Assembly: GCF_024346055.1 (NCBI RefSeq)
Contig: NZ_JAGQCH010000004.1
Span: forward strand, 124,001 to 188,000
Source of the DNA: Cyanobium sp. Cruz CV13-4-11
Lineage (GTDB): Bacteria > Cyanobacteriota > Cyanobacteriia > PCC-6307 > Cyanobiaceae
DNA length: 64,000 bases
Direction: 5' to 3'
Shown here: positions 60,811 to 63,768 of the stretch, in pieces
Numbering within the stretch: the first letter of the stretch is position 1
How the letters are laid out: each line of letters begins with the position of its first letter
Notes under the pieces: model-generated
Told to the model about the DNA's origin: nothing
Database searches by the model: none
Seen by the model: the letters and a program-made list of their open reading frames with translations, nothing else
Translations under genes and position numbers: made by a program

Positions 60811-61057
60811 ACGGCTGACAGGAATTCGCAGGCGGTAGGTGCTGTTCTGGCCAGCCTTCACCTTGAGGCCATTGCGCTATCAAGGCGCCACGCAGGGATC
60901 GCCAAGTCCATCGCCGCTGAGACCGCGATCGGCATGTCCTCTGCCGAAGCTGCGATGGGCAGGGTCATCGCGGACTGGAACGAGCGATGCAAGGAGCTGG
61001 CGCCACAGGTCAGCGGATCCCTGGCGATGCAGTCCATTGCTGAGGCCGAACAGAAAT
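60811..61057 (+). pseudogene. unidentified gene fragment interrupted by the IS66 end
   Basis: The plus-strand frame reads ADRNSQAVGAVLASLHLEAI, then RHAGIAKSIAAETAIGMSSA, EAAMGRVIADWNERCKELAP and AMQSIAEAEQKSYPF, a helical, Ala-rich protein. The frame is still open where the left inverted repeat of the IS66 element begins at 61058, so the gene was cut by the insertion. No matching continuation is evident to the right of the element. The family is unknown to me. Confidence 0.4.
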
Positions 61058-61082
61058 CGTACCCATTCAGGGGCCGGGACAG
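61058..61082 (+). repeat. left inverted repeat of the IS66 element
   Basis: Begins CGTACCCATTCAGGGG and matches the reverse complement of 63604-63628 at all but about four of 25 positions. Confidence 0.75.
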
Positions 61083-61796
61083 CTCGCAACGAACATCGGC
61101 CCTGCTGAACCCTTGACGGTGGCTTGATTCCCGGTTGCATCTCAGTCAGAGACTGCTTGCGATGGACGCCGCTCCTGCCGGGATTTCCAAGGCGGACTGG
61201 CTGGCGTGGCCGGCCAGTGCCAGAGCTCTTATCCGTACTCAGCAGGAGGAGACACTGGCGCTCCGTCAGGAGAACGAGCAACTCCGGGCCCAGCTCGCCG
61301 CCCTGGCCACCGAACTGGCCAGCCTGCGCGAGCGGATCGGCCGCAGCTCGCGCAACTCCTCCAAACCGCCCTCCAGTGATAGGCCTGGGTTCAAGCCACC
61401 CGAGCGGCGTAAGGGCAGTGGCCGCAAGCGGGGCGGTCAGCAGGGTCATCCGGGATCGGGGCCTGAGCTGCTGCCGATGGAGCGTTGCGACGAGGTGGTG
61501 GAGCACCATCCCGATGCCTGCCGCCGCTGCGGCACCCTGCTGCGGGGAGAGGATCCAGGGCCGCTACGTCATCAGGTGATCGAGATCCCGCCGATCACTC
61601 CTTTGCTGATCGAGCATCGATTGCACCGCCTGGTCTGTCCCTGCTGCTCCACAAGCACCTGCGCCGAACGGCCGGCGGATGTGGAGCACAGCCGCTACGG
61701 GCCCCGGCTCAGTGCCCTGGTGGGTCTGCTGGGTAGTGCTTTCCCTCTGAGTTTCAGCAAGACCCAGGCGCTGCTGGATAAGTTGTTGGGAGTGGA

Positions 61797-61827
61797 GTAC
61801 TCCTGCGGAGAAGACTTCGTCTACAGC
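61797..61827 (-). repeat. short dispersed repeat, copy 1 (antisense orientation)
   Basis: These 31 bases are the exact reverse complement of 63281-63311. Within the transposase they read in frame as Y-S-C-G-E-D-F-V-Y between G-V-E and S-R-G-A-I. Confidence 0.8.
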
Positions 61828-61929
61828 CGAGGAGCGATCGCTGCGATCCGCCAACGGCTGAGCGCAGCCCTGGAGCAATCGATGGAGGAGGCGCTGGCGG
61901 CGGCGCGGCAGCAGCCGGTGGCCTACGTC

Positions 61930-61956
61930 ATAGACGAAGTCTTGCGCGCAGCGGTT
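61930..61956 (+). repeat. short dispersed repeat, copy 2
   Basis: Twenty-seven bases starting ATAGACGAAGTCTTG and ending GCAGCGGTT, 22 of 27 identical to copy 3. Read in frame as I-D-E-V-L-R-A-A-V, right at the first catalytic Asp of the transposase. Confidence 0.75.
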
Positions 61957-61989
61957 GAAACCGGTGCCCCCACCGGCAATGCCGCCGGG

Positions 61990-62723
61990 TGGCCCCGGGG
62001 AACTTCCCCCCGAGGCTCCCACAGATCCGTACGTGACACTCTCGCGTCATACGGCTCCTGTTATCCCAACATTGCTGCCACAAGTGATGCCAATGGCTCC
62101 ACTCGTTGATGGCAGCGCGTTGTTCTCTGAACCACTCGCATTCCTCCCAGCGAACTGGTTGATGCTTTGGCTCAGTTTGGATAACGCAGCCCCTTCGCTC
62201 CAGAGCCATTACAGCTCCTTCATCACTACTACGGGCTGCTCCGCCCCTGCCATGGGTATTGGTATTCGCCCTCGTGGTTGTGGCCACTTGTGGCTTTCCC
62301 TACCGCTGCGCGGAAGCCTGCGGCTAGAGCACCCCATGTCAGGTTCCCACGTTCCGTATCGAGGCCTGCGATGAGCTCATGCCGCCTGAACACCGGCTGC
62401 CGCGTGGACCGTAAGCAGGTAACGTCCACACTCTTCCGGGCACCGCCTACCTGCGCCCGTTTTGACAGCTTCTGGAAGACTTTTCGTAGCCCTTGGGCTT
62501 CCGCGCAGCGGTTGCGTCTTCAGCGGTTCGCTTTTGCTCATCTTCTCATCGCTCACCTGACGGCTCAAGTCCGCCTTTTCCCCATCGCTCACCACCACAC
62601 CTCTTAAGCGCAGCAGCATGGGGTGGTTTGGAGCCTGCCCCTGCAGGCCGGCTCCGGGAGGCCAAACTCCCATCCTCGATACAGTTGCGTCAGTATTCAT
62701 AGAGAACGTTTGACTCGTGGCAC
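61990..62723 (-). mobile_element. ORF-less group II intron, antisense to the IS66 transposase
   Basis: On the minus strand the catalytic domain V is clear at about 62060-62022: GAGCCGTATGACGCGAGAG, then TGTCACGTACGGATCTG, a stem with the AGC/GU-type catalytic triad region and a GNRA-like tip. A domain VI-like GC hairpin (62020-61990) follows, and the 5' end begins GTGCCACGAG at 62723. At about 734 bases it lacks an intron-encoded reverse transcriptase; short stretches around 62290-62210 resemble the usual start region of such ORFs in cyanobacterial introns. The intron must be mobilised in trans. Being antisense, it cannot splice from the transposase mRNA. Confidence 0.75.
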
Positions 62724-62725
62724 AA

Positions 62726-62752
62726 GTAGACGCAGTCTTCCGCGAAGCGGTG
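62726..62752 (+). repeat. short dispersed repeat, copy 3, next to the intron 5' end
   Basis: Twenty-seven bases starting GTAGACGCAGTCTTC. They lie two bases from the 5' splice site of the group II intron and read as V-D-A-V-F-R-E-A-V before G-G-N-P-E-R-K. Confidence 0.75.
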
Positions 62753-63280
62753 GGCGGCAATCCCGAACGCAAGCGCGGTTGGCAGTGGGTAATGGTCACA
62801 CCGGTGGTGACGGTGTTTCTGCAGGGGCTGAGCCGATCGGCCGCCGCGGCGATCGAGCTGCTGGGGAACGCCTTTGGCGGCATTGTGGTGAGTGATCGCT
62901 TTTCTGCTTACAACCACCTGCCGGTGATGCAAAGGCAGCTGTGCTGGGCGCATCTGATCCGCGACCTGACCGCCATCGCCGAACGCCCGGGCGTCAGTGG
63001 CGAGATGGGCCGGGAACTGTTGGCGTTGCAGCAGCAGCTGTTTGTTCAGTGGCACCAGTGGAAAGACGGCACAATCGACTGGGATCAACTCCAGCAAAAT
63101 TGTCGGCCGATCCGCCAGCACTTCGAGGGCGCACTGCAGCGGGTGGTGGATCTGGGTTTTGCGCGAAAGGAGCGAACACCATGGGCCCAGACCGTGCGCA
63201 CTTGCCATAAGTTGCTGCAACGCAAAGAAGCCCTATGGACTTTTCTTGAGACCCACGGCGTCGAACCCACCAACAACGCT

Positions 63281-63311
63281 GCTGTAGACGAAGTCTTCTC
63301 CGCAGGAGTAC
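63281..63311 (+). repeat. short dispersed repeat, copy 4
   Basis: The core GTAGACGAAGTCTTC begins at 63284; the 31-base block is identical to the reverse complement of copy 1. In frame it gives V-D-E-V-F-S-A-G-V between N-N-A-A and R-A-L-R-Q, where the last catalytic Glu of the transposase is expected. Confidence 0.8.
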
Positions 63312-63603
63312 GTGCCCTGCGCCAATCCGTCATCCAGCGCAAAATCAGGGATATGCCGAGCAACAGCCATGGCGTACAGTCCGCCAGCGGTGCCATCTGT
63401 CGTAGCCGACTGCTCACGGTCACCACCAGCCTGCGGCAACAGGGCCGAGATGTCTGGGAGTTCCTGGAGCAGGCCTGGATTGCCCATCACCGCGGCGGTG
63501 TGATGCCATCACTGCTGCCGGATCCCTGAGTTCAGCAGCAAAGGCAGCACTGCTTCTTTGCTCGCTCAGCCATGGGCGAGCAGGCGTAAACTCGCGCGGC
63601 GGC

Positions 63604-63628
63604 GCGTCCCGACCCCTGAATGGTTACG
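63604..63628 (-). repeat. right inverted repeat of the IS66 element
   Basis: On the minus strand it begins CGTAACCATTCAGGGG, matching the left end at 61058-61082 with about four mismatches. Confidence 0.75.
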
Positions 63629-63768
63629 AAAACTCTTAGTGGGCTGCTGGCGCTGCCGCCCGGGCCTGCGGAGCTTGGTTGCTGTTCAGGACCGCGCTTG
63701 GGTTCAGTTAAGAAACCCCTGAAAAACCCGCTAAAATCAATCCAGATCCCAGACTGAGACTGGAACGG

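Follow-up and report, generated by a model that had tools for sequence, protein, structure and literature searches.

Four similar units of about 27 bases lie within the transposase of an IS66-like element in the 64-kb window (the whole stretch of 64,000 nucleotides analysed here), raising the question of whether they belong to the transposase itself or are copies of something that moves. All four were found where the original prediction had placed them. As 25-nt units, copy 1 occupies 61799-61823 on the reverse strand (with the outer Ns of the 27-mer at 61798 and 61824), and copies 2, 3 and 4 occupy 61931-61955, 62727-62751 and 63285-63309 on the forward strand. A repeat search of the window confirmed copies 1 and 4 as a perfect 31-nt inverted pair with 1453 nt between them, while copies 2 and 3 differ at five of 27 bases, which bears out the claimed agreement at 22 of 27. 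In a motif scan of the window the core TAGACGAAGTCTT recurred exactly at 61811-61823(-), 61931-61943(+) and 63285-63297(+), and with one mismatch at 62727-62739(+).

The host element is delimited by terminal inverted repeats on the forward strand at 61057-61080 (left) and 63606-63629 (right), which pair over 24 nt at 92%. All four copies do fall in its transposase, but the gene is not a single open reading frame, being split by an antisense group II intron that the original prediction had missed. The N-terminal ORF (61135-62109, +; Pfam DUF6444 and zf-IS66) consists of IS66 sequence to about 61984 and of intron sequence beyond, as seen by alignment with a second IS66 copy in the same genome (C29:17525-19100, 74-76% identical to the window copy); the C-terminal ORF (62717-63529, +) matches DDE_Tnp_IS66 at 1.4e-20. 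The intron, at 61985-62725 on the reverse strand with an uncertain exact 3' end, is degenerate and ORF-less, and was recognised through Rfam (group-II-D1D4-2 at 62555-62671, 2.2e-24; Intron_gpII at 61984-62059, 1.6e-8). It sits between copies 2 and 3 and adjoins copy 3. When a plasmid collection was searched with the IS, the best 20 of 491 records covered only intron sequence.

We used a scan for tandem C-GNA-G hairpins, blind to the sequence of the repeat, to ask how often such structures arise. It returned six places in the window, five of them repeat copies, against 0 or 1 place per window in 20 resampled windows, and chance is therefore excluded for the window copies. The fifth of these copies lies within the intron (62302-62326, reverse strand), where it is also matched by the search pattern. 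A probable degenerate sixth, at 62486-62513 on the forward strand and again in the intron, was picked out by eye and appears in part in the repeat listing; its loop is CTTG instead of GNA. We infer that the five clear units, along with the degenerate sixth, accumulated in an IS66 copy that was already dispensable and in the intron inserted into it.

Beyond the window, the repeat is a genome-wide family that is not limited to this transposase: other transposase families and the group II intron carry it too. The proposed search with the 27-mer recovered scattered copies both in this genome and in related ones. A pattern derived from the copies gave 14 matches in the genome itself at up to three mismatches (none for the reversed control), and a more general pattern gave 16 (control, 3). 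Across the genus, 35 of 42 genomes were matched at no more than one mismatch, the reversed control giving nothing in all 42. In an even draw from the class, 11 of 388 genomes matched the strict pattern with 0 mismatches, all 11 in the family to which the window belongs (control, 0). A scan of named genomes gave at least 117 stretches; among the matches listed, 94 were cyanobacterial, including records of Cyanobium, Vulcanococcus and Synechococcus, and 23 came from other phyla. Viral matches were treated separately and set down to chance: of 32, 24 sites were kept, four of these were exact to the longer pattern and none of the four was fully paired.

The 25-nt unit can be written T-hp1-T-hp2-T, two mini-hairpins in tandem, each with a 4-bp stem and a GNA triloop, or in full T-[AGNC GMA GN'CT]-T-[CXYC GMA GY'X'G]-T, to which the 27-mer adds an outer N on each side. 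The "palindromic core" GAAGTCTTC of the original prediction is, on this description, just the junction of the two adjacent hairpins. Our 27-mer search pattern left six stem bases (three pairs) free, and we asked how these pairs behave. For this we assembled 187 cyanobacterial copies at 87 independent sites, dropping copies with fewer than 40 bases of flank. Among the 73 independent cyanobacterial sites that matched the pattern exactly, the free pairs were Watson-Crick in 72, 71 and 72 cases, and all three together in 69; all three were complementary in 0 of the 23 matches from other phyla and in 0 of the 4 viral sites. Pairing held for 187 of the 195 free cells in 65 distinct units, compared with 93.7 in shuffles, and 72 cells had changed on both sides, compared with 21.7 in shuffles (maximum 33). 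A count on 73 units, of which 8 came from other phyla, agreed (77 both-side changes against 28.7), sliding the partners destroyed the pairing, and variants in stem length retained it. The stems are thus shown to be maintained by compensatory change. Folding energies were no better than those of shuffles (z -0.77 to 0.87), and the case for structure therefore rests on covariation. DNA parameters gave the two-hairpin fold for the four window units, and also for the complementary strand of copy 4 and for an SDR5-like unit discussed below; RNA parameters gave no two-hairpin fold in two window units or in the SDR5-like unit. Since the complement of copy 4 folds as well and the energies do not exceed those of shuffles, folding settles neither the strand nor the molecule.

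Alignment with uninterrupted IS66 relatives provided unfilled homologues at all four sites in the transposase. The C29 element has no intron, and of the four units it carries copy 4 alone. It has a single codon, GAT, where copy 2 sits (the Asp codon of VDETG) and GAC where copy 3 sits; at copy 1 its gene is one further codon shorter, giving a net difference of 27. Clean 3-nt unfilled sites for copy 1 were found in L172 (CAT) and L113 (GAT). The site of copy 4, at the Glu codon of NNAAERALRQ, is filled in C29 and unfilled in the same two relatives, unfilled homologues reading GAG or GAA. From the unfilled sites of C29, L172 and L113, the prediction that each copy turns one codon into nine (net +24) holds for all four. 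One finding that would have counted against insertion, namely the same residues conserved among relatives, was present in part: copies 3 and 4 are common to some IS66 relatives, but unfilled homologues exist at every site. The inheritance of these two copies means that not every copy is a fresh event. The Glu-codon insertion (63285-63309) is common to three diverged IS66 copies, those of the window, C29 (L008) and L208/L197, and because its units are near-identical in all three it was probably carried along as the IS diversified. The view that the units are nothing but ordinary conserved residues of an IS66 subfamily, or a coincidental similarity, can draw on the sharing of copies 3 and 4 among several relatives; set against the unfilled homologues, the units that sit in other kinds of transposase and in the intron, and the control for tandem hairpins, its probability is negligible.

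Comparison of filled with unfilled alleles could be extended to the whole set. We joined the flanks of the 187 copies and compared them with other loci. Copies needed at least 60 bases of flank, and a homologue was set aside when its gap was 27 precisely, meaning that it was filled alike, or when more than 15 of 60 bases mismatched. For 112 copies, representing 55 independent sites, there was a homologue not filled alike, and in 44 of the 55 sites exactly 3 nt were exchanged for 27 nt, the unfilled homologues being 72-94% identical and not isogenic. The empty sites anticipated by the original prediction therefore exist, and we regard a dispersed multi-copy repeat with filled and unfilled alleles as shown. 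The replaced triplet follows a rule. In 43 of the 44 sites its middle base is A; the outer bases were retained more often than expected, the first in 34 (17.3 expected) and the third in 26 (16.1 expected). The simplest reading is N-A-N to N-[25 nt]-N, with one A swapped for the 25-mer. Immediately before the 27-mer stands a C or T at 81 of 87 sites, and immediately after it a G at 64 of 87. No target duplication was seen in the empty-site comparison, one base being replaced instead, and none of the 44 replaced sites lay in HIP1. Eleven of the 55 sites departed from the 3-nt gap: five (5, 26, 29, 29 and 32) were comparisons with homologues carrying another or a partial unit, while the remainder, with gaps of 2 (three sites) and 4 (three sites), have no explanation. 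The possibility that the target is itself a pre-formed hairpin was rejected, as pairing between flanks -1 to -7 and +0 to +6 was not above shuffles in 66 cellular sites.

This rule also accounts for the position of two of the window copies. They had been noted to fall at Asp and Glu codons, presumably those of catalytic residues of the IS66 transposase. Asp and Glu codons are GAN, and the preference for a middle A thus explains why they were hit. In a pair of transposase genes about 90% identical to one another, L012 has no unit where L100 carries one, and the reverse holds too, a reciprocal arrangement that speaks for gain over loss. Units are also found nested: in L103 (at 2401) and L244 (at 1799) the GNA loop of hp2 holds a further unit that is slightly shorter, and these fit the general target Y-N-A-N-G.

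Does the reading frame carry any meaning? The four copies in the window do keep frame, as predicted, but there is nothing special in this. At 72 sites an open stretch spanning the joint runs to 150 codons or more. Insertions there fell in every one of the six phases (24, 14, 13, 12, 5 and 4), and in 14 of the 72 the insert brought a stop codon; the in-frame behaviour follows from a net length fixed at 24. An element that encodes a peptide in frame and is kept for its effect on the protein, in the manner of Rickettsia palindromic elements, would fit a net length divisible by three and the fact that phase 0 of either strand is the commonest (37 of 72). It is contradicted by the use of six phases and by the inserts that bring stops, and several of the hosts are transposases, making this explanation highly improbable. 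As to the hosts more generally, we scanned the ORFs of 94 of 95 references (one overlapping duplicate was omitted), 8 of the 94 being from other phyla, and matched 52 Pfam families; among the best 25 of the 52, transposase families were the most frequent. Choosing the longest ORF is error-prone in GC-rich DNA (6 of 10 long ORFs were without a family match), and given this error and the 8 ORFs from other phyla we make no claim about the proportion of hosts that are transposases or about metabolic genes as hosts. Nesting in an IS, put forward as a distinguishing feature, is correct for the IS66 host and is one case among other hosts. A transposase gene of Synechococcus sp. ATX 2A4 (L214) carries two repeat insertions, and the window is therefore not unique in having multiple copies per transposase.

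Another way to view the repeat is from the side of the intron that adjoins it. When the intron was compared with its close relatives, six of seven 5' junctions abutted the repeat (the window, L363, L365, L385, L386 and L396), and the seventh (L364) abutted a different hairpin, cagccgccggctg, unrelated to the repeat. Two more distant relatives (G050 and G040; L398 and L399) had no repeat at the junction, giving six of nine overall. Group IIC introns are described as inserting beside stem-loops such as terminators, not at a homing site (PMC4424553). With these junctions in mind, the repeat may offer a landing pad to an intron that seeks out hairpins, recognised here by its Rfam domains. In a related intron copy (L392, G045:C63:107838-108494) a stop-free reverse transcriptase frame lies between the ends; the 5' end of this intron copy abuts the repeat, and the copy is a candidate for a full-length form.

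The same junctions could be taken as a sign that the repeat moves by way of RNA with the help of a reverse transcriptase, which might be supplied by the intron next to it. RNA intermediates have reportedly been proposed for small dispersed repeats (SDRs) by Elhai et al. in 2008, and the seven genomes of the genus without a repeat match are also without RVT_1. However, profile searches found RVT_1 in just 11 of the 42 genus genomes, and several repeat-rich genomes lack it (G021, 14 matches; G015, 10; G043, 9; G007, 9), so that a reverse transcriptase as mover is not supported. RNA parameters do not favour the double hairpin for the pair of window units noted above, and the junction at an unrelated hairpin fits hairpin-seeking by the intron. 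On balance we consider the RNA route unlikely.

An alternative is that the repeat is a REP/RAYT-type element, its single-stranded hairpins moved by a Y1 (HUH) transposase. The unit is small, forms hairpins and starts with GTAG, the foot tetranucleotide of REP sequences. The AG of GTAG lies inside the stem, however, and the two hairpins are direct tandem units, which those of a REPIN are not. A profile search for Y1_Tnp (PF01797) found it in 6 of 42 genus genomes and in neither the genome of the window nor G045, which with 17 matches has the most in the genus. With PF01797 not found in 36 of 42 genomes, an HUH transposase is not supported as the mover, and although GTAG repeats are reported from some other cyanobacteria (PMC3733652), we regard this origin as very unlikely. 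Thus neither the Y1_Tnp nor the RVT_1 search in the 42 genus genomes identified a mover.

Our preferred explanation, held with good confidence, is that the family consists of very small, non-autonomous mobile elements of SDR type; we did not find the family in the literature searched. It shows what characterises SDRs, being dispersed and in the range of 21-27 nt, with covarying structure, filled and empty sites and self-nesting. The moving form would be single-stranded DNA folded into two hairpins, which could be recognised by its shape together with the fixed bases of loops and linkers, and a function supplied in trans would then join the 25-mer into a site that loses one adenine. A variant of this scheme would do without a transposase altogether. 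According to PMC4686876, DNA mini-hairpins that combine GNA loops with G-C stems have exceptional stability and withstand nucleases, and a resistant 25-nt snippet might be taken up whole through ordinary gap repair at the one-nucleotide gap left by a single excised adenine. We consider this quite unlikely, but if it were true, mobile DNA would be spreading by stability alone, replacing exactly one base.

The repeat ranks with the smallest pieces of DNA that seem to move. With it, the smallest class of seemingly mobile DNA reaches a further cyanobacterial lineage and acquires a precise rule of insertion that can be tested, by which one A, usually in a Y-N-A-N-G setting, is exchanged for 25 nt. 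A rule of this precision, with neither a target duplication nor a known transposase, constrains the possible chemistry, and the question of the mover becomes testable. The intron settling beside the repeat suggests, in addition, that selfish elements of one kind may serve as landing pads for those of another.

Several known systems resemble the repeat in part. Like MITEs it is a non-autonomous dispersed repeat, but it is 25 nt long, with no terminal inverted repeats or target duplication seen. Rickettsia palindromic elements share with it in-frame insertion within genes, but are given as about 150 bp in PMC10969869, whereas the window repeat is 25 nt and also brings stops. GTAG REP/RAYT sequences are likewise small hairpins with a GTAG start; the window unit differs from them in being a tandem double mini-hairpin, often inside genes, in a genome in which no Y1 transposase was found. 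The closest likeness is to the small dispersed repeats of filamentous cyanobacteria, as the original prediction had proposed. These were reported by Elhai et al. in 2008 to be about 21-27 nt long, and are said to show compensatory changes in some cases and, for SDR1 and SDR4, nesting into their own copies. We sought an SDR5-like unit, identified as such by its HIP1 position, in 12 genomes, using a pattern that included the right half ATCGC and not the left GCG. Matches occurred in three, with 128 in G412, an 8.3-Mb genome of the class, where 23 of 24 loci read GCG-[TAGGCGTAGCCCGTCGTAGAC]-ATCGC, that is, TAG followed by two tandem GNA hairpins between HIP1 bases 3 and 4. Within G412, the unit at loci L326-L354 is nearly always in HIP1, and some variants have the first hairpin replaced. 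Insertion of SDR5 between bases 3 and 4 of HIP1 (GCGATCGC) is also described in PMC4390886.

With SDRs the window unit shares its size class, its many copies and, judging from the SDR5-like copies of G412, a TAG start followed by tandem hairpins with GNA triloops; like SDR5 in particular, it inserts beside the A in a G-A-T setting. There are also differences. The window unit has 25 nt, 4-bp stems and T linkers where the SDR5-like unit has 21 nt and 3-bp stems; its family has mostly GAA or GCA loops where the SDR5-like unit has GTA; its insertions lie outside HIP1 and lose the A where those of SDR5 lie in HIP1 and keep it; and it belongs to genomes of the Cyanobium group, whereas SDRs belong to filamentous cyanobacteria. 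No description of such repeats in picocyanobacteria came up in the literature searched. Since its plan matches that of the SDR5-like unit in another cyanobacterial genome, we place the repeat among the small dispersed repeats of Elhai, as a further variant that belongs to small unicellular cyanobacteria.
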